Assembly: GCF_000469545.1 (NCBI RefSeq) | Contig: NZ_KI273072.1 | Span: 62,001 to 126,000, forward strand | Reading direction: 5' to 3' | DNA: 64,000 nt | DNA from: Mitsuokella sp. oral taxon 131 str. W9106 | GTDB taxonomy: Bacteria; Bacillota; Negativicutes; Selenomonadales; Selenomonadaceae | Shown: positions 3,692-23,477 of the stretch, piece after piece | Position numbering within the stretch: position 1 is the stretch's first letter | Layout of the letters: each line of letters starts with the position of its first letter | The notes under the pieces: generated by a model | What the model saw: only the letters and a program-made list of their open reading frames with translations | Databases searched by the model: none | Told to the model about the DNA's origin: nothing | Translations under genes and position numbers: made by a program

Positions 3692-5251
3692 GTGTCGAGA
3701 AGTCGGACGGAAGTATACCGCGAGGCCCATGCGAAGTGGGCGGCGGGGCAGTATGGCGAGGCGGAGCATATCATGCGCGCGCTTTGGGAGGGGTCGGATG
3801 GCCTTCGCGCACTGCATGAGATGCTGTTCGTCGCGTACGTGCTGCGCGACGAGGGAAAGCCGGTCTCGGAGCTTCGCCTCCTGTTGGATTTGCTGGAGTC
3901 ATTCCAGAACGACCAAAATGCAGTGCTTCTCGCTGATGCGTGGAGCATGGCAGGGGCGGCTCTTCGCCTGCTGGGCGAGAGCCGCCTCGCCCTCGATGCA
4001 TTCTTGCAGGCGACAGACATAGAACCGAACGCGGCACAAAAACTGGTTGAGTGCAGCAATGCGATCTTTACGGCAAACGCGATTGAAGGGATTACGTCAG
4101 AAGAGATGCAGGAACTCTACGCGGGTTATCGCGCACTCCTTGCAAAGCGTGAAATTGCCCCCTTGGCGCCCGTCCGCTATGCACACGATGCACTTCGTAT
4201 CGGCTATCTGTCTGCCGACCTTCGGGATCATCCCGTTGCTGCGTTTGTCCAATCGCTTTTTAGAGGATACGATAGAACGCGTTTTTCCATCTACGCATAC
4301 TCGCTTGCCAAACGCGAAGACGTGGTGACGGAGCGCCTCCGGGCAGGCGGGGCAATTTGGCGTTCGATGCAAGGCGAAACCCATGAGCGTATTGCCGCAC
4401 AGATTCGCGCCGATGAGATCGATGTGCTCGTTGATCTCGCCGGGCATACGGCAGGAAATGCCCTGCCCGTCTTCGCCTATCGTCCTGCGCCGGTGATGAT
4501 TTCGGGCATTGGCTACATGGGGAGCACGGGGCTGCTTGAAACACGTGGCTTTCTGTCGGATGTCCATTGCGCACCGGATGCGCAGTCGCCGTACTTTGTC
4601 GAGCCGCTTTTGCGCTTGCCGCACAGCCATTTTTGCTATGCGCCGTACAGCAAATTTCCTACACCGGGCGAGCCGCCGTGCCAATCGCACGGCTACGTGA
4701 CATTCGGCTGTTTCAATCAGTTCGCAAAGGTCACAGATGCGATGCTCGCGAACTGGGCGCAAATCCTTGCCATCCTGCCGGACGCGCATCTCGTGCTCAA
4801 GCACAAGCTTCTCGGCATGGAGGAAGGACGCGATTATGCGAGGAAGCGGCTCATGCGACTGGGGCTTCCATTTGATCGCGTAGAGCTGCGCGGCTATACG
4901 TCAGACTATCTTACGGAGTACCATGACATCGATATTGCACTCGATACGAGTCCCTATACGGGCGGGCTCACGACGTGCGAGGCGCTCTACATGGGCGTTC
5001 CTGTCGTGACGCTCGCAGGTGCGTACCACGGCGCACGCTTCGGCGCGAGCCTCTTGGAAAATGTCGGGCTTGGCGAACTCGTTGCCGGCGATGCGGGCGA
5101 ATACATCGCACTTGCCGTGCATTTTGCGCATGAATGGGAATTGCTCCGCCTGCTGCGGCAGTCCATTCGCCCGCAGATGGAGTGCTCGCCGCTTATGGAT
5201 GGAACAGGTTACGTGCGTACCGTGGAAGAAATTTATGAGATGCTCGTATGA
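3692..5251 (+). CDS. SPINDLY/OGT-type GT41 glycosyltransferase with TPR-like N-terminus
   Basis: A 519-residue protein. Residues 1 to about 130 are helical and TPR-like (YREAHAKWAAGQYGEAEHIM, and a second unit ending LDAFLQATDIEPNAAQ). The rest matches the O-linked GlcNAc transferase catalytic region (PF13844): RIGYLSADLRDHPVAAF, VDLAGHTAGNALPVFAYRPAP, CFNQFAKVTDAMLANWAQIL and the nucleotide-sugar site DIALDTSPYTGGLTTCEALY. Members add a hexose or HexNAc to Ser/Thr of proteins; bacterial copies in glycan clusters are often linked to flagellin or adhesin glycosylation. GTG 3692 is chosen because of the strong GGGAGGAGGAAGG just upstream. The acceptor is unknown; no flagellin gene is in the window. 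Confidence 0.9.
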   Translation: MSRSRTEVYREAHAKWAAGQYGEAEHIMRALWEGSDGLRALHEMLFVAYVLRDEGKPVSELRLLLDLLESFQNDQNAVLLADAWSMAGAALRLLGESRLALDAFLQATDIEPNAAQKLVECSNAIFTANAIEGITSEEMQELYAGYRALLAKREIAPLAPVRYAHDALRIGYLSADLRDHPVAAFVQSLFRGYDRTRFSIYAYSLAKREDVVTERLRAGGAIWRSMQGETHERIAAQIRADEIDVLVDLAGHTAGNALPVFAYRPAPVMISGIGYMGSTGLLETRGFLSDVHCAPDAQSPYFVEPLLRLPHSHFCYAPYSKFPTPGEPPCQSHGYVTFGCFNQFAKVTDAMLANWAQILAILPDAHLVLKHKLLGMEEGRDYARKRLMRLGLPFDRVELRGYTSDYLTEYHDIDIALDTSPYTGGLTTCEALYMGVPVVTLAGAYHGARFGASLLENVGLGELVAGDAGEYIALAVHFAHEWELLRLLRQSIRPQMECSPLMDGTGYVRTVEEIYEMLV

Positions 5252-5399
5252 ATCGATAGCGACTGCCTGAAAGCAAGGCAGGGAACCCATAAAGAAAGAG
5301 GTGCCGTCTTATTCCATTGCCGCAGACGATTCTGCACGCATTATGAGCGATAAAAACCTCGTCCTATCAGCGTATGGATTGAAAAAGGAGAGAACTGCC

Positions 5400-7832
5400 A
5401 TGATGAAGGAGATTCAATGCGCCGACTTCTCACAGGCCAACCGGGAATTGTTTCTCGACGATGCAAAAAGCCGATTGGGCATGACCTTGTGTGCTGGTTC
5501 GTATTGGGTGCAGGGCGTCTTCGATGCGGGCAGCTACGACGTGAATGCCATTGCGGGCAAATACACGGCGATTGCGCATCGCGTCCGGCTGGAGCTCGGA
5601 CAGAACCACGCGTACCGAAATGTTTCCGCCTATCCGTTTGAAGCGGTTTCCCTGATCGCGGGCGGGAGCGCCGACGGGCACCACAACACCTCGCCGAACC
5701 GCAATCAGATCCTCATCGGGAATGATGTTTGGATCGGCTGCGATGTGCTCATCCTGAGCGGCGTTCGCATTGGCGACGGTGCGGTCATCGGCGCGGACGC
5801 CGTCGTGACGAAGGACGTGCCACCGTACGCAGTCGTCGTCGGAAATCCCGCGCGCATCGTCAAGTATCGTTTTGACGAAGATACGATAAAGAAGCTGCTC
5901 GATATCCGATGGTGGGACTGGGAGCCTGCTGCCATCGAGGAGGCGCGCGGCTATATGCAGGATCCCCGCGCTTTTGTCGATCGCTTTTGGAAGCAGCCGG
6001 CGCCGCTGCCCGTGACCGAGTGGACGAAAAGAATTGCGAAGCTGCAGTCGGGCGGCAAAACCGTGTATTACATGCGTGCGGATTTCGGCTCGACCGATGC
6101 GGTATGGATGCGCTTCCTCTGCCGCTTTATCGAGCGGTTCGGGGCAGGGGACGAGGCGGCGCTTTGCTTGGAAACGCCGCCTATGGCAGAATGCCCGCAT
6201 GACTATGCCGTGCTTGCCTGCCTGATCGAGCAGATGGGAAGCCGCGCTCCCGCGCTCCTGACGCATGAGAGCCGCGCGGCGTTTTCGGAGTGCGTGTTTC
6301 CTTATGTCGGCGTGTTCCTGACGACGAAGGAAGCCGTTTCGCTCGAAGGCGTCCGTCTTGCGGAGGCGGACGGTGTCCGCGTACGCTACGCCCTCGATGC
6401 GCCGCCGTTCCTTTGGCCGATGAAAGAGGAGCATTTGCCGCTGCCGCGAGACGTTTGGAACGCGACGATGGAAAAGTGCATCATGTGGCGGCGGGAGAAA
6501 CTCCTCGAAATGGTCTTAAAAGGGCGGTACGACGAGGCCATGGCTGCGATCTGGAATATCGCCGCTACGCTGTACGAATACAATCAGTTCTACGTCGACG
6601 ATGTGACAGAGGCAGCGCTTCGCGCACTGTCCCTGCTGCTGCCCGCAAGTGAAAAGCCCGTCCCGCAGGGACGGCACGAGAGGCGAATCCTCTTTTACGA
6701 TGCGTTCGGGCTAGACACCCGCGGGCTCGCACAGATTTACCTGCGCGCACTTGCCCCGCTTGCGGATGCGCTCTGCTACATCGCGCCGATCCATGCGCAG
6801 GGGAAGATGCCTTCGCTCGAAGCCGCCGTGCATGCGGCGGGCGGGGAGCTCCAGTACCTGCCGCTCGGACCGAACGCGGCGACGTACCAAAGCCTCTGCT
6901 CGGTGATCGACGCATTCGCGCCGACGCACAGCTTCCTCTACACGAAGCCGTGGGATGTGACTGGACTGCTCGCGTTCATGCGCCTTGAAGGGCGCAGCGT
7001 GCGCTATCAGATCAATCTCACGGACCATGCGTTTTGGCTCGGGCAGAACGCATTTGACTACAGCTTGGAGTTCCGCGATTTCGGCGCCTCACTCTCGCGC
7101 GACTTCCGCCGTATCCCTGAGGGGAGGCTGCGCCTTCAGCCGTTCTATCCATTCGTGGAAGAAGGCGTTCCGTTTCAGGGGTTCCCATTTGCGCGTGAGG
7201 CGGGCGATTTCGTCATCTTTTCGGGCGGTCAGCTTACGAAGACGATGGACGAGCAGCTCACGTATTATCGGATCGTCGCGCAGATCCTTCTCGACTTCCC
7301 GCAGGTGAAATTCTGGTATGCGGGCGTTGGCGACGGGCGATACCTCGCCTCGCTCGCGCAGCAGTTCCCGGGGCGCGTCGTGCACACGGGCGAGCGGCAT
7401 GATTTGCTCGCCATACTCGAGCACGTCGATATGTATCTCTCTACTTGTCCCGTCGGCGGCGGGCTCATGACGCAGTACGCGGCGCTCGCGGGGAAGCCGC
7501 CCTATATCCTCGACTACAATGACTACCACTACGGCTTCCTGCTCGACGAGGCGAATCTCGGCATCCACTTCACGCAGTACGATGCGTTCATGGCGGAGAT
7601 TCACCGCTATATCGGCGACGCGGATTATAGGCAGAAAAAGGACGCAGCGTTTGCCGCGCACAAGAACCTTCTGACGGCGAAAGAGTTTGCGGCAAATCTG
7701 AAGCAGATCGTGGAGACTGGGCAATCGAACTACCCGATTCACTTCTACGATGTCACGCCGAATATCCGCGGACAGGAACGCGTCTTTTTGGCGAATTATA
7801 AGAAAGCGCATCCGTTTCATCAGCCGGATTGA
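5400..7832 (+). CDS. Beta-helix acyltransferase fused to glycosyltransferase-like domain (paralogue 1)
   Basis: About 810 residues. The first ~190 form a left-handed beta-helix O-acyltransferase of CatB/NeuD type: hexapeptide repeats around [19 protein letters not shown], then [18 protein letters not shown] and the family's C-terminal helix. The second half starts near [20 protein letters not shown] and has the look of a GT-B transferase, with [24 protein letters not shown] and [20 protein letters not shown]. The ATG at 5400 (or 5403) follows AAAAAGGAGAGAAC; the longer frame to GTG 5301 lacks a good ribosome site. The next gene has the same architecture throughout, so this is a tandem duplication. 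A role in adding and acylating a sugar on the same glycan is inferred. Confidence 0.75.
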
Positions 7833-7876
7833 CATTGGAAAGGAAGTTTGGCCATAGAGCAGTGCAGGGAGGAATC

Positions 7877-10282
7877 ATGGTAACGGTGATGGAACATACG
7901 GGCGTTTCGGCAGGGATACGAGAGTTTTGGCTCGATGCAAAGCGGAAGTGGAAGGGCATCACGCTCGGCGCTGGCTCGTATTGCCGGCAGGCTTGGCTCG
8001 ACGCGGGCAGCCGCAATGCGGATGTGCTCATCGGCCGCTATGCCGTGATCGGCGCAAACGTCCGATTCATCGTCGGGCGTGCGCCAGACTGCCGCGGCGT
8101 CACGGCGTTTCCGTTTGAGGCACTGGCGCTCAAGCATGACGCGCATGAGAGTCTCGTGCCCTGCCGCAATCAGGTATGCATTGGAAACGATGCACAGATC
8201 GGCGACGATGCGGTCCTTTTTGGCGGCGTACGCATCGGTGACGGCGCGGTTGTCGCGCCGGGTGCTGTCGTAATGGAGAACGTGCCGCCCTACCATGTCG
8301 CGGCAGGCAATCCAGCGACGGCAGTTGAGGCGCGCTTCGATGCGAAAACGATACAGAAGCTCCTCGACATATGCTGGTGGGACTGGCCGCAGGAGGAGGT
8401 CGGGCAGGCGCGCGGATTCATGGGAGACGCGGACGCTTTCATCGCGCATTTTTGGCGCGAGCCGCCTGCCGCAGAGGAGACGCCATGGTCGCACAAGGCA
8501 AGGGCGCTGTACGAGCAGGGCATTCACATCTACTACATGCGCGCGGATTTCGGTTCGGGCGATACGGCATGGGAGCCGCTCGTCTTCGCGTTTCTCACGC
8601 GGTTTTCCGTTCGGGACAAGGTCGCACTTTTCCTCGAGATGCCGCCCTCTTCTGTGCATGCCGCTGCCTGTGCGACGCTCTTTGGCCTGCTCGGACAGCG
8701 CGGCAGCGACGCACCGCAGGTCGCTGTGCAGGAAATCGAGGAACCCTTCCCGCAGGCGGTATTCCCGTACATCGGAACATTCTTGATGACGAAGGAAGAG
8801 GAGTCGCTCCTTGGTCTTCAGCAGGCGGAGCGCTGCGGTGTTCGTGTCGCCTATGCGCTTGATTCGGCGGAGCTGCTCTTTCCGGCAGACGGGCGGCATG
8901 AGCCTGTCAAGGGCGGGGCGCACGCGGCAAAGCGGCGCATTTGGGATCAGCGCTTTGCATGGGAGCGTGAACGCATCTTGGATTACCTGCTCGCGCAGAA
9001 GACGGAGGCGGCAATGCAGCTCACGGCATCTGTGGCTGAAGCACTCTATGCGTACAATCAGCTCTATGTCGATGATCGTATCGAGAGTTATCTGCGTGCG
9101 CTCCAGTTGCTTCTGCCGCAGGTAGGGCAGCGCGCGGGGGAGGCGGGACGCGTCCTCTTTTACGATCGTTTCGGCTACGAATCGCGCGGGCTCGCGCAGA
9201 TTTACGTGCGCGCGCTCGCCGATCTCGCGGACGCGCTTTGCTACATTGCGCCGGCAGAGGCCGAGGGACGCATCCAAAAGCTCGAGGAAATTGTGCATGC
9301 GGCAGGCGGGCAGGTGCTCTATCTCGATCTCGCGCCAACCGTCGCGAACTACACGGCACTCTGCCGCGCCGTGCAGGCGTTCGCGCCCGCGCACAGCTTT
9401 CTCTACACCGAGCCACAGGACGTGACGGGCGTGCTCACTTTCATGCAGATGGAGGGCAAGAGCCGCCGATACCAAATCAATCTGACGGATCACGCGTTTT
9501 GGCTCGGCGCGAATGCCTTTGACTACAGCCTCGAGTACCGCGACTACGGCGCGGTCATTTCGCGTGACCGCAGGCGCGTGGAAGAAACGCGGATCCTCTA
9601 TCAGCCGTATTACCCCGTCGTTGACTACGACGTGCCGTTTGCCGGCTATCCCTTCGCGCGTGCGGCAGGTGATTTCATCATCTTTTCGGGCGGCTTTCTC
9701 TACAAGACGATGGATGCGGCAGGGACGTATTACCGCTTGGTGGGAACCCTGCTCGCGCGCTTCCCGCAGGTGAAGTTTTGGTATGCGGGATTCGGCGACG
9801 ACAGCGGCTTGCGCACGCTCATGGAGCGCTATCCTGGACGCGTATTCCATACGACGGAGCGGAAGGATCTTTACCAAATCCTCAAAAACATCGATATGTA
9901 TCTTAGCACGTGTCCACAGGGCGGCGGGCTTATGACGCAGTACGCGGCGCTCGCAGGAAAGCCGCCGTACATCCTCGACTACAACGGTTTCCATCACGGC
10001 TTCCTGCTCCACGAGGAGGAGCTCGGCATTCATTTCTGCGACTACGATGCTTGTCTGGCGGAGCTTTCGCGCTACATCGGCGACGCGGCGTATCGCCGGC
10101 AGAAGGACGCGCTTCTCATGAGCCGTGCGCGGCTCATCGACGCAGACGCGTTCCGCGCGAATCTGCAGGAGATCATGGCGCATGGGAAATCACGTTATCC
10201 TCTTCATTTTTACGATGCCGACGAAACGATTGCCCGGCAGGAAGAGATCTACTTCGAACGCTTTATTCAAGATGATGCGTGA
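7877..10282 (+). CDS. Beta-helix acyltransferase fused to glycosyltransferase-like domain (paralogue 2)
   Basis: About 801 residues and collinear with the preceding gene over its whole length. The N-terminal hexapeptide acyltransferase shows GNDAQIGDDAVLFGGVRIGD and VMENVPPYHVAAGNPATAV; the C-terminal half shows [47 protein letters not shown] and [23 protein letters not shown] 7877 is preferred for GGGAGGAATC in front of it; the frame also extends to a TTG at 7829 overlapping the previous stop. The many substitutions between paralogues, with the key motifs kept, suggest distinct substrates rather than a recent copy (inference). Confidence 0.75.
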   Translation: MVTVMEHTGVSAGIREFWLDAKRKWKGITLGAGSYCRQAWLDAGSRNADVLIGRYAVIGANVRFIVGRAPDCRGVTAFPFEALALKHDAHESLVPCRNQVCIGNDAQIGDDAVLFGGVRIGDGAVVAPGAVVMENVPPYHVAAGNPATAVEARFDAKTIQKLLDICWWDWPQEEVGQARGFMGDADAFIAHFWREPPAAEETPWSHKARALYEQGIHIYYMRADFGSGDTAWEPLVFAFLTRFSVRDKVALFLEMPPSSVHAAACATLFGLLGQRGSDAPQVAVQEIEEPFPQAVFPYIGTFLMTKEEESLLGLQQAERCGVRVAYALDSAELLFPADGRHEPVKGGAHAAKRRIWDQRFAWERERILDYLLAQKTEAAMQLTASVAEALYAYNQLYVDDRIESYLRALQLLLPQVGQRAGEAGRVLFYDRFGYESRGLAQIYVRALADLADALCYIAPAEAEGRIQKLEEIVHAAGGQVLYLDLAPTVANYTALCRAVQAFAPAHSFLYTEPQDVTGVLTFMQMEGKSRRYQINLTDHAFWLGANAFDYSLEYRDYGAVISRDRRRVEETRILYQPYYPVVDYDVPFAGYPFARAAGDFIIFSGGFLYKTMDAAGTYYRLVGTLLARFPQVKFWYAGFGDDSGLRTLMERYPGRVFHTTERKDLYQILKNIDMYLSTCPQGGGLMTQYAALAGKPPYILDYNGFHHGFLLHEEELGIHFCDYDACLAELSRYIGDAAYRRQKDALLMSRARLIDADAFRANLQEIMAHGKSRYPLHFYDADETIARQEEIYFERFIQDDA

Positions 10283-11879: not shown

Positions 11880-12608
11880 ATGGTAGCTATCATTATGGCA
11901 GCGGGCGTAGGAAGCCGCATCAGCCGGCATGTGGACAAGCCAAAATGCTTGCTCGAAATTGAAGGCGAATCCATCCTTCGCCGAACCGTGAAAATGCTGC
12001 TGCGCAATCACATTTCATCAGTCGTTGTGACCGGATACCAGCATCGGCAGATCGCGCGGGAATTGCAGGACTTGCAGGCAACGCTTCTCCATAACCCCTT
12101 TTACCGCGTGACGAACAGCTTAGGGTCGCTGTGGTTTGCACGGGATTATATTCAAGACGACGAGGACGTGATCCTCCTAAATGCCGACGTGTTCTGGGAA
12201 CAGGATATCCTCGACATTCTCCTTTTGGGAAAGGAGAATGCGCTTCTCCTCGCCGATTCGTCCGTGGAACGCTTGGAGCAGGGCGATTACTTTTTTGGCG
12301 TGCACGATGGGACGATCGTGAAGTACGGCAAGGATATGAAACGCGTGGACCGCACACATGAATACGTTGGCGTCGGCATCGTCCGCGCGGCTTTTGTGCC
12401 CGTTTTCTGCGATATGATGCAGTACATGATGGATTCTGAGCAGTACAACTGCTGGTGGGAGGATATTCTCTATCGCTGCAGCAGCGATCACGACGTTTAC
12501 ATCCGCGATATTGCCGGCCATTTCTGGGCGGAGGTCGACTACATCGAAGATTACGAGCGGATCATGAATTACATCTGCCAGCGCAATCAAGGCAAGGCGG
12601 CCGAGTAG
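11880..12608 (+). CDS. LicC-like nucleotidyltransferase (copy 1)
   Basis: 242-residue GT-A-fold nucleotidyltransferase. The signature IIMAAGVGSRISRHVDKPKC with conserved Lys, the metal-site VILLNADVFW and the C-terminal FWAEVDYIEDYERIMN match the phosphocholine cytidylyltransferase (LicC) branch, which also includes aminoethylphosphonate cytidylyltransferases. It activates a small phosphorylated head group as a CDP derivative. It differs clearly from the second LicC-like gene at 16383, so two activated head groups may be made, or one copy may handle a sugar phosphate. A methyltransferase follows directly. Confidence 0.75.
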   Translation: MVAIIMAAGVGSRISRHVDKPKCLLEIEGESILRRTVKMLLRNHISSVVVTGYQHRQIARELQDLQATLLHNPFYRVTNSLGSLWFARDYIQDDEDVILLNADVFWEQDILDILLLGKENALLLADSSVERLEQGDYFFGVHDGTIVKYGKDMKRVDRTHEYVGVGIVRAAFVPVFCDMMQYMMDSEQYNCWWEDILYRCSSDHDVYIRDIAGHFWAEVDYIEDYERIMNYICQRNQGKAAE

Positions 12609-12648
12609 ATGCGGCATGAGGCGGCTTGTGAGGAAAGGGAAGGACACG

Positions 12649-13401
12649 ATGGGAAATCGAATCGAGGGAGAAAGCGCGCCTGTCGGCTATGCGGCGATCC
12701 AAAATTTCTTTGAGGAGCGCAGCAGCCGTGCGGATGTCAGGAGCAAGTACAATTACGTCCTGTTCCAAGACGACCACCCGGAGCTGGCGGAGAAGCGCGA
12801 TGCGATGGAAAAGGAACGCATCGGCGCTATCCTGGCGCCGCACATCCATAAGGGAATGTGTGTGCTCGATCTCGGCTGTGGCATCGGGCGCTGGGGCGAG
12901 TACTTCCTGACGAAAGGCATACGCTACGTCGGCATGGATGGCAGCGCGGGCATGGTGGAGCGCGGTGCGGAAAACCTTGCGGGCTTTACGGGGAAAAAGC
13001 TCTTTCAGGGCTACGTGCAGGACTTCCCAAGACGTCTTGCCGAAGTGGGGGAAAAGGGAGCATTTGACATTCTGCTCGTCAACGGTGTGTTCATGTACCT
13101 GAACGATGCGGACTTTGTAAAGGCACTCCACGATCTGCGCGATTACGTTGCTCCTTCGGCACTCATCTACTTGAAGGAGAGCATGGGCGAAACGGAGCGG
13201 CTGACGCTGCAGCAGGTCGAGTCGGCAGAACTCAAGCAGGAGTACAGTGCCATTTATCGTTCGATTGCGGAATATCGAAAGGCATTTGAAGAGACATTTT
13301 CTGCGCCTTGCTACAAACGGCTGTCGGACGGACCCCTGTTTGCAAGCGGGCGCAACCGGAAAGAAACGCTCGATTATTACTTCGTGTATCAGCGTATTTG
13401 A
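12649..13401 (+). CDS. Class I SAM-dependent methyltransferase
   Basis: 250 residues with a Rossmann-fold methyltransferase core: motif I VLDLGCGIGRWGEYF near residue 70, VGMDGSAGMVERG (motif II acid) and FDILLVNGVFMYL (motif IV). ATG 12649 has AGGAAAGGGAAGG upstream; an ATG at 12616 is in frame but less well placed. It sits between a LicC-like gene and a beta-helix/TagF fusion. Methylating a sugar is possible; methylating an ethanolamine-type head group is another attractive idea in a lic cluster. Both are inference, since the family is too broad to fix the substrate. Confidence 0.75.
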   Translation: MGNRIEGESAPVGYAAIQNFFEERSSRADVRSKYNYVLFQDDHPELAEKRDAMEKERIGAILAPHIHKGMCVLDLGCGIGRWGEYFLTKGIRYVGMDGSAGMVERGAENLAGFTGKKLFQGYVQDFPRRLAEVGEKGAFDILLVNGVFMYLNDADFVKALHDLRDYVAPSALIYLKESMGETERLTLQQVESAELKQEYSAIYRSIAEYRKAFEETFSAPCYKRLSDGPLFASGRNRKETLDYYFVYQRI

Positions 13402-13431
13402 TCGGATCGTTGGGAAAGAGAGGATATTGAC

Positions 13432-15459
13432 GTGAATCAGCCAATGCGAATGGGAGCGCACTGTGTCGTAGGAAAGCGCGTCCAAATCGGAGCGCGCGTC
13501 GTCTTAGGGCATGGCGTCATCGTCGAGGACGGTGCGGTGCTTGGCGATGACGTCTGGATTGACAGCCATGCGATTGTGCGCGGCAATGCGCGTATTGGAG
13601 CGGGCGGTCACATTGGGGCGCACTGCATCATTGCCGAGTATCAGATGGACTTTTGCCGTGATCATGTATTTCGCGAACACCCGCTCGTGATCGGCGCGCA
13701 TGCACTCATACGCAGCGGCACGATTCTCTATGCAGGGTCGCAGATCGGATCATATTTTATGACGGGGCACAACGTCATGGTGCGCGAGGATGTGACGATC
13801 GGCGATCACGTCAGCATCGGCAACTACTCCGACGTGCAGAACGAGGTGCAGATCGGCAGTTACGTCCGCCTGCACAGCAATGACCGCATCGAGCAGCTCT
13901 CGCGCATCGACGATTACGTTTGGCTCGCGCCGGGCGTTGAGCTCACGAACGACCCGACGCCGCCGTCGGACGACATGGCCGGCGTGCACGTCCATTCCTT
14001 CGCCGTGATCGGCGCACAGGCGACCGTCCTGCCGGGGTGCGAGATCCAGGCGGGAAGCCTTGTCGCAGCGGGCTCTGTCGTGACGAGGGACGTCGCAAAG
14101 GAAACGGTCGTCGCGGGCAATCCCGCGCGCTCCATGGGCAGCGTGCGCACGGTGCACCGCAGGGGCGCGCATGCGGAGGAGGCGGCGTACCCGTGGCGCG
14201 AGCGCTTCTCGCGTGCGATGCCGTGGGACGGCGTCGGCTATTCGGCGTGGGCAAGAGAGCAAGCGCCCGCAGCGCACAAGGAAAGGCGCAAGATCCGCGT
14301 CGCGTTCCTCATGCAGAATCCCTACTGCTGGGACAAGCAACGCCCCGTCTGCGAAACGCTCTGCGCTGATGAGGCTTTCGAGGTGCTCGGTATCGTCGTG
14401 CCAGGCTACGAATGCTACGACATCGGCGTGCGTCCGTTCGGCGCATGGGGCGCAGAACACGAATACTTCCATAATCTTTACGACGGGCTCATCGACGCGG
14501 TGGGAGGAGACGGAAAGCTCATCGACCTGCGCGACTATGCACCCGATTACGTATTCTATCAGCGCCCCTATAACATCGTCTTTCCGCCTGCGCTGAAGTC
14601 GGGCTACGTCGGCCAGTTCGCGAAAGTCTGCTACCTGCCTTACTGCACGAATGACGTGAAGCCGTTTGAGCGCAACATCACGTCCCTGCACGATTTCTTT
14701 GATCCTGCGTATCTTTACTTTGCCGAGGGCAGGAGCATGCACGCGGCGTTTTTCCAGGAGTACGGGGCACGTATTGCGGCGGGGACATTTCGAAACGTAC
14801 TGACAGGCTATCCCGTGCTCGAGCGCGCGTACATGGAGCGCGCGAACTACGTGCCCGGCGAGAAGCTGCGCGTCCTTTGGACGCCGCGCTGGAGGTATGC
14901 AAATCCGATCGGAGGCAGTCACTTCCCGCAGTACAAGGATAAGATCATCGCGTGGAAGCAGGCGCATGAAGCGGAAATGGAACTCACGGTCCGTCCCCAT
15001 CCGCTGCTTTGGCAGAACATGATCAACGAAGGCTTTATGACGCGCGAGACGACGGAGGCGTACAAGGAAAAACTTCGGCAGGCGGGGATTGCGCTCGACG
15101 CGAACGCACTTGTCGAGGATACGTTCCGCACGACAGACGTGCTCTTGACGGACAGCTCGTCAATCGTCGATGTGTTCTTCCTCTCCGCGCGTCCCATCAT
15201 ATACTGCCCGTATACGGACGATCTCAACGAGGAGTACCAGCAGATGTTCACAGCGATGTACATCGCGCGAAGCTGGGAAGAAGTCGAACGGTATCTCGCG
15301 CTGCTCCTCAGCGGCGAAGATCCGCTGCGCAAGCATCGCGAAGCACTTGTCTCGGAATTTTCGAAACTGCATATCGGCGCGACGCAGCGCGTCGTGGAAA
15401 CGCTTCGGGAAGACGGCATGAAACAAATCGAAAAGGAGGGAAATCGTGTCCGGGATTGA
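13432..15459 (+). CDS. Beta-helix acyltransferase fused to CDP-glycerol glycerophosphotransferase-like domain
   Basis: 675 residues. Residues 1 to about 240 are hexapeptide repeats (VVGKRVQIGARVVLGHGVIV through VTRDVAKETVVAGNPARS), giving a long left-handed beta-helix. From about residue 285 the protein resembles TagF/CDP-glycerol transferases (PF04464): KIRVAFLMQNPYCWDKQRP, VLWTPRWRY, ELTVRPHPLLW and the C-terminal TDVLLTDSSSIVDVFFLSARP. Such enzymes move a polyol- or choline-like phosphate from a CDP carrier. GTG 13432 follows GGGAAAGAGAGGA. It overlaps licA by 14 bases, and it is the only intact gene in the cluster that could transfer a CDP-activated group, which matters because licD is broken. 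Confidence 0.75.
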   Translation: MNQPMRMGAHCVVGKRVQIGARVVLGHGVIVEDGAVLGDDVWIDSHAIVRGNARIGAGGHIGAHCIIAEYQMDFCRDHVFREHPLVIGAHALIRSGTILYAGSQIGSYFMTGHNVMVREDVTIGDHVSIGNYSDVQNEVQIGSYVRLHSNDRIEQLSRIDDYVWLAPGVELTNDPTPPSDDMAGVHVHSFAVIGAQATVLPGCEIQAGSLVAAGSVVTRDVAKETVVAGNPARSMGSVRTVHRRGAHAEEAAYPWRERFSRAMPWDGVGYSAWAREQAPAAHKERRKIRVAFLMQNPYCWDKQRPVCETLCADEAFEVLGIVVPGYECYDIGVRPFGAWGAEHEYFHNLYDGLIDAVGGDGKLIDLRDYAPDYVFYQRPYNIVFPPALKSGYVGQFAKVCYLPYCTNDVKPFERNITSLHDFFDPAYLYFAEGRSMHAAFFQEYGARIAAGTFRNVLTGYPVLERAYMERANYVPGEKLRVLWTPRWRYANPIGGSHFPQYKDKIIAWKQAHEAEMELTVRPHPLLWQNMINEGFMTRETTEAYKEKLRQAGIALDANALVEDTFRTTDVLLTDSSSIVDVFFLSARPIIYCPYTDDLNEEYQQMFTAMYIARSWEEVERYLALLLSGEDPLRKHREALVSEFSKLHIGATQRVVETLREDGMKQIEKEGNRVRD

Positions 15460-16390
15460 CGCGAAGGAAGCCCTGCAGGATGCTTGGCAGTGCAACGCAG
15501 AAGCCGTCTTGGCCTCCGCTATCGTCATGCATGCACTGGGGGAGAGGGCTATCTCCGTCGCGCGCATGAAAGAGGGCATGACGAACGATTCCTTCCTCGT
15601 GACGACGCCGCGCGGGAAGTACATCGTTCGCTTGAATGGCATTGGCTCTGGGCACCTCATATCCCGCACGCAGGAAGTGCGGACGTATGCCTTGCTGAAG
15701 GGGGTTGGCATCAGTGACGAAGTGCTTGCAATCGATCCGACATACCGAGGCGGGTACAAGATCTCGCGCTACCTGAAGGGCGCGCGCCCATGTGACCCAC
15801 GTTGCGAGTCGGACGTGCGCCTTGCGATGCAGCACCTTCGCTGTTTTCATGCGCTTCATCTGCATGTCTCCTATGCGTTCGATGTTTTTGCGGAGATACT
15901 GCGGTACGAAGCGCTCGTTCGTGAAATAGGGGGGGACATATGTTCGATTGATTATGCCGCGACGAAGGAACGCGTGCTCTCCCTGCAGGTGCTCCTTGAA
16001 CCGCTTCCCAAAGAGATGGGCCTCGCACATATCGATGTCGTGCCCGATAATGTCCTCTTTTCGGGCGGACGGACGTACCTCATCGACTGGGAGTACGCGG
16101 CTCAGGCGGATCAGCATCTCGATCTCGCGATGTTTGCTGTCTATGCGGGTTACGATGAAAAAGAAACGCGTCGGCTGCTCGCGCTTTACTTCGATAGGAA
16201 GCCCGCACCGTACATCACGGCAAAGGTCTTTGCCTACATGGCGGCGGCAGGACTCTTATGGAGCAATTGGTGCGCTTTTAAGACATCGTGCGGTGAAACC
16301 TTCGGACACTATGCCGACCTTCAGTACGAGTACGCGCGGAGGTTTCCAATCTTAGCACGGCACATATTGGAAGGAGACGGCGATGCATAA
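15446..16390 (+). CDS. licA: LicA-type choline/ethanolamine kinase family protein
   Basis: 314-residue APH/choline-kinase fold. Visible are TNDSFLVTTPRGKYIVRLNG (ATP loop), the catalytic-loop stretch LAHIDVVPDNVLF with Asp, and the metal-binding YLIDWEYAAQADQHLDLAMF. LicA phosphorylates imported choline as the first step of phosphocholine decoration. GTG 15446 is well supported by AAAAGGAGGGAAATC. It overlaps the upstream fusion gene and, downstream, licC by 8 bases, so licA-licC-licB-licD form one coupled unit. Confidence 0.8.
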   Translation: MSGIDAKEALQDAWQCNAEAVLASAIVMHALGERAISVARMKEGMTNDSFLVTTPRGKYIVRLNGIGSGHLISRTQEVRTYALLKGVGISDEVLAIDPTYRGGYKISRYLKGARPCDPRCESDVRLAMQHLRCFHALHLHVSYAFDVFAEILRYEALVREIGGDICSIDYAATKERVLSLQVLLEPLPKEMGLAHIDVVPDNVLFSGGRTYLIDWEYAAQADQHLDLAMFAVYAGYDEKETRRLLALYFDRKPAPYITAKVFAYMAAAGLLWSNWCAFKTSCGETFGHYADLQYEYARRFPILARHILEGDGDA

Positions 16391-17114
16391 AGCCAAACGC
16401 GCCGTCATCATGGCGGCAGGGCGCGGCAGCCGCCTCGATCCCTTGACGCGCACCGTGCCGAAACCCTTGCTTCCCGTTCGCGGCAGCACGTTTCTGGAAC
16501 GTGCCATCGCAGTGCTTCACGAGAGCGGCATTGAGGAAATCCACATTGTCGTCGGCTATCTCGCCATGGCCTTTGCGCCGATTGCCGCACGCGACCGGCG
16601 CGTGCATCTCATCGAAAATCCCTATCACGGTTCGTGCAATAATATTTCGTCGCTCTACGTGGCGCGGGCGCATTTGGAGGATGCGGTCATACTCGACGGT
16701 GATCAGTGGATTGCCAATCCGATGATCCTTGCCCCACAGTTCGAGCATTCGTGCTATTGCTGCACGAAGCCACAGCGCGAGACGAGGGAATGGCTGCTCA
16801 CCGCCCCGCACGGACGCGTCGTCTCCTGCAGCCGGACGGGCGGCGTGCCAGGCGCGGCGGACTGGCAGCTTTGGAGCGTGTCATTTTGGACGGCGAAAGA
16901 CGGACAGAAGCTGCGCCGATTCGTCGAAGAAGACTTTGCGAAAGAGGCGAATCGCGATCTCTACTGGGACGATATCGCGCTCTTTCTGCACCCAGATGCA
17001 TTTTCACTCGGCATTCGTCCCGTGAAAGAAGGCGACCTAATGGAAATCGATACGTGTGCAGAGCTCGCCGCATTCGATCCTGCCTATCAGACGGCAGCAG
17101 GGGAGCAGAGATGA
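16383..17114 (+). CDS. licC: LicC-type phosphocholine cytidylyltransferase (copy 2)
   Basis: 243-residue nucleotidyltransferase with AVIMAAGRGSRLDPLTRTVP followed by KPLL, AVILDGDQWIAN as metal site, and the SCNNISSLYVARAHLEDA and WQLWSVSFWT segments typical of LicC. The enzyme converts phosphocholine plus CTP to CDP-choline. Its position between licA and licB is the classic lic arrangement and supports the substrate better than for the first copy. Its stop overlaps the ATG of the permease gene (ATGA-type junction). Confidence 0.8.
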   Translation: MHKAKRAVIMAAGRGSRLDPLTRTVPKPLLPVRGSTFLERAIAVLHESGIEEIHIVVGYLAMAFAPIAARDRRVHLIENPYHGSCNNISSLYVARAHLEDAVILDGDQWIANPMILAPQFEHSCYCCTKPQRETREWLLTAPHGRVVSCSRTGGVPGAADWQLWSVSFWTAKDGQKLRRFVEEDFAKEANRDLYWDDIALFLHPDAFSLGIRPVKEGDLMEIDTCAELAAFDPAYQTAAGEQR

Positions 17115-18031
17115 TGATGCGCGGAGCAATTGGCATTGGGCTTTTGAGCGGCCTGCTTTGGGGCATCAACAACGTGCTCGTTGCACGGGCTGGGGATATA
17201 GCAGGAGAAGCGTTTTTCCTGCCGATCGTATTTGCCTCCTGCAACGACCTTTGTGCGGCGGCAACGCTCCTTTCGATTACCGCGCTGCGCGGGAAGCTAT
17301 GGACGATGGCTTCCAACCTGCGGTCGGCAGGCGGAAGGCGTGTCGTGCTTGCCGCACTCGTCGGCGGACCTTTCGGGCAAACGATGTATTTTTTCGCGAT
17401 CGCCAAGGCAGGTGCGGCGCCGGCGCTCCTCGTCACGGCACTCTATCCGATTGTCGGCTGTCTCTTGGCGCGATTCTTCTTGCATCAGGGCATGACGCGG
17501 CGCATGTGGGGCGGCATTGTGCTGTCGGTGGCAGGCGCGATGCTCGTCTGCGGCGGAGGCGGTATGGCAGCACATTTTCCTGAATCCTTTTTGTGGGGAA
17601 TTGCCTGTGCACTTTGTGCTGCGCTCGCGTGGGGGAGCGAGATCGTCCTCGCGATCTTGGGCATGAAGACGGTCGAGCCACATGAGGCGGTCACGCTGCG
17701 CGAGGGTGTATCGGGCCTGACGCTCGCCGCAATCGTCCTATGCTTGCCGGAGGCGCGCCTTGCGGCAGGTGCTTTCGTTCTGCAGAGCGAGGCGCTTCTT
17801 CTCGTGGCGGCGGGAGTCGCAGGCGGTCTTTCGTACGCCTTTTGGTATCGGGCGAACAACGCGCTCGGCTGTGCGCGCGGAACGGCGACGAATGCGACGT
17901 ACATGATTTGGGGCGTTGTGCTCGGCGCATTGCTGCATGGCATAGACACCTTGACCGCTTCGGCGGTCTGTGGCTGTGCGCTTATTTTCATCGGTGTCGC
18001 CGTCGTCGTATGGCAGCAGGAGGAAGCATGA
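17111..18031 (+). CDS. licB: LicB-type permease of the DMT/EamA superfamily
   Basis: 306 residues with ten apparent membrane segments in two EamA repeats, beginning GIGLLSGLLWGINNVLVARA and later WGIACALCAALAWGSEIVLA. LicB proteins import choline for the pathway; the assignment rests on location between licC and licD, as EamA sequence alone would not define substrate. ATG 17111 overlaps the licC stop; a much longer upstream extension of the frame to 16706 is Arg-rich and is a shadow of licC. The stop overlaps the licD start. Confidence 0.75.
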   Translation: MMMRGAIGIGLLSGLLWGINNVLVARAGDIAGEAFFLPIVFASCNDLCAAATLLSITALRGKLWTMASNLRSAGGRRVVLAALVGGPFGQTMYFFAIAKAGAAPALLVTALYPIVGCLLARFFLHQGMTRRMWGGIVLSVAGAMLVCGGGGMAAHFPESFLWGIACALCAALAWGSEIVLAILGMKTVEPHEAVTLREGVSGLTLAAIVLCLPEARLAAGAFVLQSEALLLVAAGVAGGLSYAFWYRANNALGCARGTATNATYMIWGVVLGALLHGIDTLTASAVCGCALIFIGVAVVVWQQEEA

Positions 18032-18249
18032 AACGCGATATGGTTCGGGACGGTTTTTTCGTGACCGTGTCTCGCCAAAGGATTTGGGAAAAGGAACTTG
18101 AAATTTTTTCTGTCTTTGATTCGCTTTGTGAAGTGTACGATATTTCTTATTTTGCTGCGTTTTGGACGCTGCTCGGCGCAGCGCGCCACAAGGGATTTAT
18201 TCCATGGGATGATGACAACTCAGGACTATTTTCGCGAAATGAGGATTGA
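18028..18249 (+). pseudogene. licD: licD remnant: phosphocholine transferase N-terminus only
   Basis: The 73-residue product carries the LicD family core start: SLCEVYDISYFAAFWTLLGA followed by ARHKGFIPWDDD. Normal LicD proteins are roughly 260-280 residues and continue with a DID-type motif after WDDD. Here the frame goes astray right after WDDD and stops at 18249; the neighbouring frame reads TTQDYFREMRIDP before a stop, as expected if a deletion removed a few codons and shifted the frame. The downstream glycosyltransferase begins four bases later. The phosphocholine transferase of the pathway is therefore probably dead at this site. Confidence 0.8.
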
Positions 18250-18252
18250 TCC

Positions 18253-19374
18253 ATGACCAGCATTGTGATCCTGAGCTACAATACGCTCGCTTTGACGCGC
18301 CTCTGCATCGAGAGCATTCGCACCTATACGGCGGCGGATTCGTACGAGCTGATCGTCGTCGACAATGGCTCGGCAGATGGCTCGCGCACGTGGCTCAAGG
18401 AGCAGGAAGATATCCTTCTCCTATGCAACGAGACGAACCGCGGATTTGCAGGCGGCTGCAACCAAGGGATGCGGGCGGCGCACGGGGATAGCCTGCTGCT
18501 CCTGAACAGTGATACGATCGTCACACCACATTGGCTTACGAATCTTCGCCGCGCGCTCTTTTCGGCTCCTGACATTGGCGCCGTCGGAGCTATGACGAAT
18601 GCAGCGTCCAATGGGCAAATGCTTCCCGTGCACTACGATGGACTGGAGCAGATGGAATCGTTTGCGGCGCGGTTCAATGTACCCGATCCATCGAAATGGC
18701 AGCCGTGGTTCATGCTCGTCGGATTCTGCCTTCTTATTCGGCGCGAGGCGTACATCGAGATAGGCGAACTTGACGAGGCGTTTAGCCCCGGCTACTACGA
18801 GGACGACGACTATGCGATCCGCCTGCGGCAGGCAGGATTCGACATTCTGCTTGCGCAGGATACGTTCATCCATCACTTCGGCTCGGCGTCGTTTCGGAAG
18901 GAGAACGATTCGGAAAAGAGTACGAAGATGCAGGCGCTCAATCGCAGAAACCGCGTTTATCTCGGAGAAAAGTGGGGGCTTGGCGAGGACTATGCGCTAT
19001 CGGTTGATTGCTCCATGCTGCTGCCCGCTGTGCTGCCGAAAAAGGCAAAGGTCACGCTGCTCGATTTTCGCTACGGGAAAAATATCTACCCGCTTCGCGC
19101 GCGGCACCCCGAGGCGGAAGTCTGCGGCATCTTAGTCGGCGCGTGCCCTCTGCTGTGCCCATCGCCGCGCGTTGCGGTGCGCCGCGCGGCGAATCTGGCG
19201 GAGGCGGCGCATGCCGTGCAGGCGGGACAGGACTTCATTGTCGTGCTCACGCTCGCCGCGTATCAAGAAGAGCAGGAGACGGTTCGCATCCTGCAAACGA
19301 AACTAAATGGAAACGGGCAGGTCGTCTACAGCGATGCAAACGGGACGTACCAAATCGGGCGAGTCGGGCGATGA
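18253..19374 (+). CDS. GT2 glycosyltransferase
   Basis: 373 residues. The GT-A family 2 domain occupies about residues 1-240: TSIVILSYNTLALTRLCIES, LIVVDNGSADGSRTWL, the DXD-like LLLLNSDTIV and the catalytic-side region YYEDDDYAIRLRQAGF. The last 120 residues (after YLGEKWGL) are a less typical tail. It belongs to the rhamnosyltransferase/O-antigen-type branch and would add one sugar from a nucleotide donor in the cytoplasm. It begins four bases after the broken licD. Confidence 0.9.
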   Translation: MTSIVILSYNTLALTRLCIESIRTYTAADSYELIVVDNGSADGSRTWLKEQEDILLLCNETNRGFAGGCNQGMRAAHGDSLLLLNSDTIVTPHWLTNLRRALFSAPDIGAVGAMTNAASNGQMLPVHYDGLEQMESFAARFNVPDPSKWQPWFMLVGFCLLIRREAYIEIGELDEAFSPGYYEDDDYAIRLRQAGFDILLAQDTFIHHFGSASFRKENDSEKSTKMQALNRRNRVYLGEKWGLGEDYALSVDCSMLLPAVLPKKAKVTLLDFRYGKNIYPLRARHPEAEVCGILVGACPLLCPSPRVAVRRAANLAEAAHAVQAGQDFIVVLTLAAYQEEQETVRILQTKLNGNGQVVYSDANGTYQIGRVGR

Positions 19375-19422
19375 ACGGAAACGGCGGAGGCGGGACGCGC
19401 AGGCGAACCAAAGGGGCGCAAG

Positions 19423-21063
19423 ATGGAAAAACGGCAGGATATGCAGGAAAACAAGATTACGATTATCGCGCAGTGCGGCGCGGACGGCACGTCTGCCATG
19501 CACGCGTACGCGGAGGCGCTGATCGTGCCGGAGGGGTACGAAGCGGAATGCATCGAGATTCCGCACGCAGAATCAGTAGCCGCGGCGTACCAGCGTGCGA
19601 TGGAGCAGAGCTCCGCAAAGTACAAGGTCTATCTTTCTGCCGGCAGCGTCATCGTCAAGGCGGATTTTCTCGCCGAGATGATTCGGATCTTTACGGCGGA
19701 CGAGACGATCGGACTCATCGGCGCCGTCGGCACGGATCAGCTCTCGGCGAGCGGCATCATGGCGCGGTCGCCGCGCATTTACGGACGCCTGCTCTACTGG
19801 GACGGAAGCCAGTTCTCAGGAGAACAGGCGGCGGACGGCGTGCAGGATGTGATGGCGGTCACGGGCGAACTCATCGCGACGCAGTACGATACGGACTGGC
19901 GCTGCGACCTCTTTGTGCATGACTGCTTTTGGTCGGAGGCGCAGTGCGCAGAGTTTCGACGGCGCGGTCTTCGCGCCGTCGTGCCGCAGCAGGCGGAGGC
20001 GTGGGTGCTCGCAGCGAAGAACGCGCCCTTTCATGCGCCGAGCAGGGAGGTTTTCCTCGATACGTATTCCAAGGACATTTACCCGCTCGTTTCCATCGTC
20101 ATTCCGACGTACCGCACGGAATTTTTCCGGCAGGCGCTTTTGAGCGTGCTCGCGCAGACATACCGCAATCTCGATATTTTTGTGACGGACAACGCCAAGG
20201 ACAATGGGACAGAGGAGATGATGGCGCGCGCGTTTTCGGACGACGCGCGCATCCACTACGAGCACCATGCCGGCTACACGCCCGAGGAGAACTGGGCGCG
20301 TGCGCGCGCCTATGACAATCCCAATGCGGAGTATGTCAACTGGCTCATGGACGATGACCTCTTTCTGCCCGAAAAGATCGAAACGATGATCGACTACTTC
20401 TTCGCGAATCCCGGCATCAGTCTCGTGACATCGTACCGCGAATGCATCGACGAAAACGGGAATAAATTGCCCGATCTTCCCTATACGAAGCCGTTTGTAC
20501 ACCATGTGACGCGGATTCGCGGCGAGGAGCTTGGCGCGTATATCCTGCGGCACTGCATCAATGTCGTCGGCGAGCCGACGACGCCGCTCGTGCGCAAGGC
20601 GTTTCTGCTGGACGGGCACGATCTCGGCTGGACAGGGTGCGAGGGACGCTATCTGATTTCGGACTTTCCGACGTGGCTGCGCCTTTTGGCGCAGGGCGAT
20701 GCGATTTATTTGCCGCAGCCGCTGAGCCGATTCCGCATGCACGAGGGCAATGAGAACTGGGATCCAGTCGTGCGGTGCAAGGGATACGTCTGCATGGCGA
20801 TGGAAATCGAGGAAGCGATTCGGCGCAATGTCTTTCTGAACACGGCAAAGGAACGGCGCGAGGCGATCACCGTCTGGCTCGCCATCGTCTCGGACTTTCT
20901 GCAGGAAGCGAAGTGCGCTGAGGCACTCGGCGAATGGCAGGACGTGCAGATGCTCATGCAGTGGGTTGCCGCCATGGCGGCAGCACCGCAGGAAGACTAC
21001 CAGATCCAGTTTGGCAGCGGTTCGGCGATGGCGCGGCTGATTCAGCAGGAGGCAGGAACATGA
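19423..21063 (+). CDS. Two-domain GT2 glycosyltransferase with StrF-like N-terminal domain
   Basis: 546 residues. Residues 1 to about 205 resemble the StrF-type domain (PF13712), with VYLSAGSVIVKADFLAEMI, TIGLIGAVG and an HDCFWSEAQC segment. A canonical GT2 domain follows: PLVSIVIPTYRTEFFRQALL, IFVTDNAKDNGTEEMM, and WLMDDDLFLPEKIETMID with the DDD metal site. The C-terminal ~120 residues are helical. ATG 19423 has AAGGGG nearby; ATG 19441 is an alternative. The stop overlaps the next gene's ATG, indicating coupling. Confidence 0.85.
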   Translation: MEKRQDMQENKITIIAQCGADGTSAMHAYAEALIVPEGYEAECIEIPHAESVAAAYQRAMEQSSAKYKVYLSAGSVIVKADFLAEMIRIFTADETIGLIGAVGTDQLSASGIMARSPRIYGRLLYWDGSQFSGEQAADGVQDVMAVTGELIATQYDTDWRCDLFVHDCFWSEAQCAEFRRRGLRAVVPQQAEAWVLAAKNAPFHAPSREVFLDTYSKDIYPLVSIVIPTYRTEFFRQALLSVLAQTYRNLDIFVTDNAKDNGTEEMMARAFSDDARIHYEHHAGYTPEENWARARAYDNPNAEYVNWLMDDDLFLPEKIETMIDYFFANPGISLVTSYRECIDENGNKLPDLPYTKPFVHHVTRIRGEELGAYILRHCINVVGEPTTPLVRKAFLLDGHDLGWTGCEGRYLISDFPTWLRLLAQGDAIYLPQPLSRFRMHEGNENWDPVVRCKGYVCMAMEIEEAIRRNVFLNTAKERREAITVWLAIVSDFLQEAKCAEALGEWQDVQMLMQWVAAMAAAPQEDYQIQFGSGSAMARLIQQEAGT

Positions 21064-22358: not shown

Positions 22359-23477
22359 ATGAAAAAGAACGATGCTTCGTATCCGATAATGGCGGGCAGG
22401 AAGCTTTTTACGGCAGGGCCTGTTCGAGAGATTCGCAGCGTGTTGAAAGCAGAGGCACGGGGAAGCGCGTATATGCGCACCGATGATTTTCGGAACTACA
22501 CGAAGGCCTTGTGCACGAAACTGCAGGCCGTCTTGGAAACGCAGAACCCTGTCCTGCTGGTTGCGTGCTCTGGGACCGGCGTCATGGAAATGGCCGTTGT
22601 CAACACGCATCCGCAGATGGCGCTTGTCATCGGGAACGGCCATTTTGCCCACCGTTGGGCAGAGATCTTGGACAGTCATGGATTCCCCTATCATGTATGC
22701 GCAGATGACACGTATGCGGGCGTGGAAGAATATTATCGGCACGATGGAAGCAAATACACGTATGATGTCGTGTTCGGTACATTTTGCGAATCATCGACGG
22801 GAAGATTGCTGTCGGAGATTCCTAAAATCAGCGAACGAATTCATCGCAACAAGGGGATCTTCGTGCTCGACGCGGTTTCCGGGCTTGTCGTGAACCCGTT
22901 GAAGACAGATGAATGGGGCGTGGACATGGTCATATCCTGCGCACAGAAAGGATTTGGCGTGGCGCCCGGCCTTTCCATCATCAGCCCAAGCGACCGTGCG
23001 CTTGCCCTGTGCAGACAGCGGCCGTGCACGAGCTATTACTTCGACATTGCCCGCTATGTGGAAGACTACCAAAGAGGCAGCACGCCGTACACGCCGCCGG
23101 TATCGCTCATGCATGCGCTCGACAAATCCTGCGACTTCATTCTGAGGCAGGGGGGCAAGTATATCCAAACTTGTGCCAAGCGGACGGGAGAGCTGCGCGA
23201 GCAGATGAAAGGGCTGGGCTTTTCCATTACGGATGAGGCACATCTTGGAAACTGCATCACGGAGTTCTCCGTGCCGGATGCATGGCATAAGGCCGGCATT
23301 TCCTGCGATGCGATCGTAAGCCGCCTGCGCGTCATGGGCTATGAGACGGTGCCGAAGGATCAAAAGTCTTTCCGCGTCGGCAACTATAATATCTTCCGCG
23401 CAGAGGAAATCCGGGATTTCGTGTCAGCGGTCCGAACCGTGCTCCGTTCGATGGAGCGCAATCTCCAAGCGCATTAA
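22359..23477 (+). CDS. Class V PLP aminotransferase (PhnW / alanine-glyoxylate type)
   Basis: 372-residue Aminotran_5 enzyme. PLP lysine is about Lys197 in VISCAQKGFGVAPGL; VACSGTGVMEMAV and LDAVSGLVVNP are the family cofactor motifs. Length and pattern fit alanine-glyoxylate or 2-aminoethylphosphonate aminotransferases. In a cluster with LicC-like cytidylyltransferases an aminoethylphosphonate role is imaginable, but no PEP mutase is in the window, so the substrate stays open. GGGAAGGG precedes ATG 22359. It is the last gene of the glycan cluster; a new promoter lies 50 bases downstream. Confidence 0.8.
   Translation: MKKNDASYPIMAGRKLFTAGPVREIRSVLKAEARGSAYMRTDDFRNYTKALCTKLQAVLETQNPVLLVACSGTGVMEMAVVNTHPQMALVIGNGHFAHRWAEILDSHGFPYHVCADDTYAGVEEYYRHDGSKYTYDVVFGTFCESSTGRLLSEIPKISERIHRNKGIFVLDAVSGLVVNPLKTDEWGVDMVISCAQKGFGVAPGLSIISPSDRALALCRQRPCTSYYFDIARYVEDYQRGSTPYTPPVSLMHALDKSCDFILRQGGKYIQTCAKRTGELREQMKGLGFSITDEAHLGNCITEFSVPDAWHKAGISCDAIVSRLRVMGYETVPKDQKSFRVGNYNIFRAEEIRDFVSAVRTVLRSMERNLQAH

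Follow-up and report, generated by a model that had tools for sequence, protein, structure and literature searches.

A licD remnant and a TagF-like candidate transferase at a lic locus of Mitsuokella sp. oral taxon 131

The closest described counterpart of the locus analysed here is the Lic-1 pathway, encoded by licABCD in Haemophilus influenzae and Streptococcus pneumoniae, in which LicD is the transferase (PMC10434233). According to the same source, Lic-1 homologues occur in every bacterium surveyed that carries phosphocholine on carbohydrates, licABCD has been used to predict glycan-linked phosphocholine, and surface phosphocholine interacts with host proteins. The LicD-family protein mf1 has been confirmed in vitro as a recombinant phosphocholine transferase and is, so far as the authors of PMC11982090 know, the only one. 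The licD gene need not adjoin the other three, since in Proteus mirabilis O18 wzx lies between licABC and licD (PMC8027243). Among the matches listed in our literature search, which covered few subscription journals, no TagF-like phosphocholine transferase was recognised.

Here, we describe a lic locus in a window of 64,000 nucleotides from Mitsuokella sp. oral taxon 131 str. W9106 (Table 1). The locus resembles Lic-1 in that the best PDB matches of LicA, LicB and LicC are pneumococcal and most of the choline-site residues checked are kept; unlike in Lic-1, licD is almost certainly a dead stub, and a functional transferase of this type is missing.

Table 1. Coordinates of the lic locus and its flanking genes within the window
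Feature	Position	Strand	Basis or remark
Hexapeptide domain plus PF04464 TagF-like domain	13432..15459	+	PF00132 and PF04464 over cut-off
licA, choline kinase	15446..16390	+	best PDB match pneumococcal LicA 4r77, 5.5e-30
licC, phosphocholine cytidylyltransferase	16383..17114	+	best PDB match pneumococcal LicC 1jyk, 2.3e-23
licB, choline permease, DMT/EamA type	17111..18031	+	pneumococcal LicB 7b0k/7paf, E 1.2e-25; EamA
licD stub	18028..18249	+	PF04991 positions 1-30 of 227; ends just past WDDD
GT2 glycosyltransferase	18253..19374	+	PF00535; 3' flank of stub, probable deletion end

The initial annotation had called licA, licC and licB intact and translationally coupled, and the closer comparison agrees: licA, licC, licB and the stub each overlap their predecessor by a few bases, and the pneumococcal LicB structures are the only PDB match of the permease at E up to 0.01. 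In LicA, 10 of the 13 positions examined are kept, namely N181, D194, E196 and seven (T29, D176, V178, Y197, W251, W254, Y268) of the eight residues that contact choline according to PMC4364537; positions 31 and 32 differ, and the remaining contact, Glu213, is Tyr. This last substitution counts against the choline reading. Eight positions were considered in LicC. Two of them, D105 and D192, were taken from PMC6697681 and are both kept; among the other six, D107, W136 and Y190 are unchanged, positions 129 and 173 carry different residues, and position 216 falls outside the alignment. LicC has the Asp residues of pneumococcal LicC and not the Glu residues reported in PMC6697681 for Treponema denticola PntC. 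None of the window proteins is assigned to LicA, LicC or TagF by NCBIfam: the matches considered, which for two of the proteins are the top 25 of 45 and the top 25 of 36 families, are below cut-off. From the conserved residues and the similarity, the three genes look functional.

The licD reading frame, by contrast with these genes, was reported to end after 73 residues near the WDDD motif, and it does. Residues 34-63 match the start of the LicD family at 39.3 bits (E 9.7e-10); the match stops at WDDD and the frame closes 10 residues after GFIPWDDD, leaving the motif present and the full domain of about 227 positions absent. A conserved D and R stand at fixed places past the motif in 49 of 49 relatives, all picked by the GFIPWDDD motif itself, and are missing from the stub. 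The four best distinct full LicDs among the loci compared are 50-65% identical to the stub over 60-70 residues, and its single NCBIfam match, to choline phosphotransferase Mf1, is below cut-off. The GT2 gene begins where the rest of licD would lie, and more than 80% of the LicD domain is gone. The N-terminus of the GT2 protein is complete, aligning from residue 1 or 2 with its homologues in locus L059, and the gene is the probable end of the deletion that removed licD. The search for other licD genes that had been proposed earlier returned nothing besides the stub in the whole genome (2,313,357 bases, 25 contigs, completeness 100), and two full LicD queries found no further part of the gene in the window (next matches E 0.055 and 0.18). 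Because most of licD is missing, one base change is insufficient as an explanation. We are highly confident that the stub is a real, dead 5' remnant of licD and not a whole gene with a frameshift.

Two further suggestions made about the stub did not hold. One was that traces of the following codons persist in another frame. When a profile built from 48 stop-free LicD stretches was applied in three frames to the 36 bases past the motif, 827, 749 and 2858 of 3000 random stretches of the window scored equally well or better (scoring windows of 6, 8 and 10 residues, respectively), which is no better than chance. The last 18 bases of the range 18028-18270, in which the truncated gene had been placed, belong to the GT2 gene. 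A frameshifted but complete licD was rejected, given no trace above chance and no further part in the window or the genome. The other suggestion was phase variation. Positions 18001-18300 contain two runs of six T and no longer homopolymer, and their one tandem repeat is a triplet present three times at the licB end. Around the stub only short two-copy repeats occur, the longer ones imperfect; across 13000-19500 there are two imperfect repeats of period 12-13 and about two copies. A phase-variable lic locus was rejected for want of a repeat tract and of a 3' part of licD: since that part is nowhere in the genome, slippage would be unable to restore licD, and resequencing of 18150-18270 would be unable to yield a full gene.

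The stub is also distinct in base composition. Its GC content is 44.6% (43% at third positions), compared to 57-62% (66-71%) in licA, licC, licB and the GT2 gene, and 222-base windows with GC as low make up 0.16% of 614 local windows and 8.5% of 3189 across the whole window. This locally unusual composition suggests that the licD had an origin separate from licABC and was acquired from outside.

Immediately upstream, and overlapping licA by 14 bases, lies a gene for a protein of 675 residues with a hexapeptide domain of acyltransferase type and a PF04464 domain, the TagF-like part being encoded at 14269-15456. The PF04464 domain scores 36.9 bits against a curated cut-off of 22.1 and is the only PF04464 match in a search of the whole genome; NCBIfam matches of the protein are below cut-off. 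Its known counterparts are the TagF/TarL CDP-alcohol phosphotransferases. The domain is modelled with a GT-B fold (11 sequences in the alignment, mean pLDDT 87.5), and VIA-align places TagF 3l7i best, with Z 23.2 over 318 residues (rmsd 3.6), and TarL at 20.6; the UDP-GlcNAc 2-epimerases, at Z 22.9, are tied with TagF. Foldseek puts the epimerases first, its best 50 rows being nearly all nucleotide-sugar 2-epimerases by title and none TagF, and TagF leads the fold matches only after VIA-align. A PDB sequence search with the domain alone gave nothing at E up to 1, and one with the PF04464 alignment gave two weak matches and no more, to TarL (E 0.43) and to Xys1 (E 0.53); in this weak alignment with TarL the TD-x-SS motif of the domain is aligned. 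Unlike TagF and TarL, the protein is fused to a hexapeptide domain, is linked to licABC and comes from a genome without TagD over cut-off. RPHP and D-x-[ST]-S motifs are common to licA-linked PF04464 forms and to most of their class, whereas TagD-linked forms mostly carry KPHP and HDSGS, with the G170 protein as an exception.

We surveyed 189 genomes of the same family, the Selenomonadaceae. LicA was found in 21 (E up to 1e-40), LicD in 82 (E up to 1e-5) and a match to a PF04464-type profile in 65 (E up to 1e-15); the profile was built from G000 (the genome studied here), G010, G026, G038 and G056, which match by construction. In a tree of the best LicA piece per genome, with 21 of 21 kept, 16 sequences form one group (98/96), and we read all 16 neighbourhoods. 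A PF04464-type gene is located upstream of licA in nine (G000, G010, G026, G038, G056, G118, G120, G121, G225), directly so in seven and with a frameshifted tagD-like gene between in G026 and G225. Pfam was run on the licA-linked proteins of seven of the nine, with G120 and G225 resting on the profile and similarity; the G225 copy is cut by a contig end, and that of G026 scores 18.9 against the Pfam cut-off of 22.1. Four of the remaining neighbourhoods have a sulfatase/phosphodiesterase-family gene (G016, G020, G047, G201), two have an intact licD (G224, G226), and one has none of these three kinds of gene (G116). LicD (E up to 1e-5) is absent from six of the nine genomes with PF04464 beside licA, is present only as the stub in ours, and is encoded on other contigs in G026 and G225; the stub is the only licD beside licA among the nine.

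G224, with licD, is sister to G026 and G225, with PF04464 (100/99), and G226 joins next (100/99). The tree thus indicates that the last-step gene is swapped within one LicA lineage. When four labels are placed on the tree they are clustered, with 6 changes and 0 of 200 shuffles as low, as vertical descent would give likewise. Within the main LicA group, licD adjoins another candidate transferase gene in two genomes, ours and G201, and is broken in both. In G201 an in-frame stop splits licD (L101:7661-8566) beside licC-licA-licB and a sulfatase-family gene; this genome has another LicD elsewhere. A counterexample outside the main group is G060, where licD is open and occurs together with a LicA-bearing fusion and a gene of the sulfatase family. 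Scanning named genomes yielded seven loci: five from Selenomonas, including oral species, and two from MAGs. Four of the seven were read. PF04464, licA, licB and licC stand in a row in L159 and L163, both from Selenomonas, and the stretches examined in the MAG loci L158 and L164 held no lic gene. The five named Selenomonas loci are probably from the same genomes as those surveyed and are not independent.

Sulfatase/phosphodiesterase-family proteins of about 700 residues are encoded beside licA or licC, or beside LicA-bearing fusions, in eight genomes (L052, L054, L065/L107, L101, L102, L103, L104, L106), one of them cut by a contig end. A family search confirmed PF00884 in five of the eight loci, and these proteins are a possible third class of last-step enzyme.

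The PF04464 domain also occurs outside lic loci. In a tree of 37 rows with long branches, built without contained duplicates and without matches shorter than about 250 residues, the partial G225 copy among them, the licA-adjacent domains occupy about four places, among relatives from genomes without LicA, and 500 of 500 label shuffles were as low. LicA at E up to 1e-6 occurred in one of 23 genomes checked, ours; among the others, 15 g13 genomes and G124 carry PF04464 relatives of the same motif class in the absence of LicA. The protein from G124 and the licA-adjacent protein from G056 share 62% identity. These relatives in genomes without LicA indicate that the class is not choline-specific and serves other donors too, and licA adjacency is the main evidence pointing to choline.

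One alternative donor would be CDP-glycerol. No TagD (TIGR01518) was found over cut-off in our genome, where the only match, below cut-off, is an HldE-type gene. TagD matches over cut-off occurred in one of 36 genomes tested, and in 35 of 36 when weaker ones were included. Those examined in G000, G010, G056 (two) and G121 were HldE domain II or HldE-like, and the matches in G038, G118 and G120 are equally weak. With the examined matches being HldE or HldE-like, CDP-glycerol is not an obvious donor in our genome and is disfavoured. However, G170, a member of the PF04464 class, lies near a TagD-like gene, which speaks against the choline reading, and together with the tagD-like genes of G026 and G225 this suggests that CDP-glycerol may serve as a donor now or may have done so ancestrally. 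The frameshifted gene between PF04464 and licA is at L053:12355-12730 (-) in G026 and at L095:739-1114 (+) in G225. The frameshift is the same in these two genomes, which differ at other sites, and TagD may be abandoned there; both also carry other TagD-like matches.

A further comparison is with PntC-type, LicD-linked 2-aminoethylphosphonate clusters. The full LicD nearest to the stub by bit score (G005, 59% over 61 residues) belongs to a cluster with PEP mutase; in this the present locus differs, as our genome has no PEP mutase match. A role in aminoethylphosphonate use is therefore unlikely and is disfavoured, the LicC residues also being of the choline type. A class V aminotransferase at 22359-23477 of the window has 24-28% identity to aminotransferases that relatives encode next to a LicD or PEP mutase gene.

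The initial annotation had proposed that phosphocholine transfer was lost, phase-variable or done by another enzyme. The last of these is favoured, because licABC in relatives is often accompanied by a different candidate transferase and has no licD next to it; CDP-choline as the donor of the candidate is a prediction. Our candidate for a phosphocholine transferase that replaces LicD is the TagF-like protein, and we propose it tentatively, with a confidence just short of evenly balanced. The cell would import choline by LicB, phosphorylate it by LicA and activate it to CDP-choline by LicC, steps predicted from similarity and from the residues kept. The TagF-like GT-B domain encoded upstream of licA would then place phosphocholine on a surface glycan, which the hexapeptide domain may acetylate. 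Once the TagF-like enzyme served, licD would have been free to decay to its dead 73-residue 5' end. We give somewhat less credence to the broader reading that the last step is exchangeable in the Selenomonadaceae, with LicD as one of several alternative enzymes, a TagF-like GT-B enzyme substituting for it, the sulfatase family providing a third, and the licD described here dying after such a swap. If TagF-like enzymes do take CDP-choline, a genome without licD could no longer be assumed to lack glycan-bound phosphocholine, and a new donor would be added for a large enzyme family.

The strongest competitor, though in our judgement unlikely, is that transfer has simply been lost: licD would have been deleted recently, licABC would not yet have decayed, and the TagF-like gene would serve another modification. 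The death of licD, the only classical transferase found, would fit this, as would the TagF-like relatives in genomes without LicA and the apparently orphan licA of G116. Recent loss is hard to reconcile with six relatives that lack licD and keep licA, licB and licC beside the TagF-like gene, and the active-site residues of LicA and LicC are mostly kept. Less probable again is transfer by an enzyme encoded elsewhere, either an unrecognised enzyme of the island or a member of, for example, the sulfatase/phosphodiesterase family. The family's presence beside licA or licC in four relatives of the main LicA group and in four others argues for the latter, and PptA, a pilin phosphocholine transferase, belongs to the alkaline phosphatase superfamily (PMC10434233). 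However, the best match to the licA-linked form within the window (E 0.48) is not a convincing relative, and the passages on PptA in PMC10434233 tie it to phosphatidylcholine pathways, describe the pathway supplying its donor as unidentified and report no evidence for Lic-1 and PptA together.

It is very improbable that CDP-choline instead enters phosphatidylcholine through a CDP-alcohol phosphotransferase, with no glycan transferase needed. A precedent is Treponema denticola, in which a LicC-LicA fusion feeds phosphatidylcholine synthesis. Against this, a single PF01066 match (E up to 0.001) was found in each of the 16 genomes with LicA that were tested, compared to one in 13 of 14 genomes without LicA (E up to 1e-40) and two in the other; no extra CDP-alcohol lipid transferase accompanies LicA, and the route is disfavoured. 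An assembly or sequencing artefact, with a full licD in the cell, seems similarly far-fetched. The assembly is a draft of 25 contigs, but the stub lies well inside a contig of 132 kb, the GT2 gene follows without a gap and with a complete N-terminus, and no other piece of the domain occurs in the whole genome. Transfer by the TagF-like protein thus remains our preferred, if tentative, reading.

Other genes in the window also have counterparts near licD or in glycan loci of relatives. Just upstream of the TagF-like gene, at 11880-13401, two genes may be the remainder of another activated-group module that lacks its licD. One encodes a second nucleotidyltransferase, with 71% identity to a licD-neighbouring gene of G020 (L071), and the other a methyltransferase, with 65-66% identity to licD-neighbouring genes of G001 and G002. 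Farther upstream, at 3692-5251, 5301-7832 and 7829-10282, are genes for a GT41-like protein and two proteins of more than 800 residues, in which Pfam finds hexapeptide repeats only. Relatives of these proteins are encoded in several surface-glycan islands of Selenomonadaceae.
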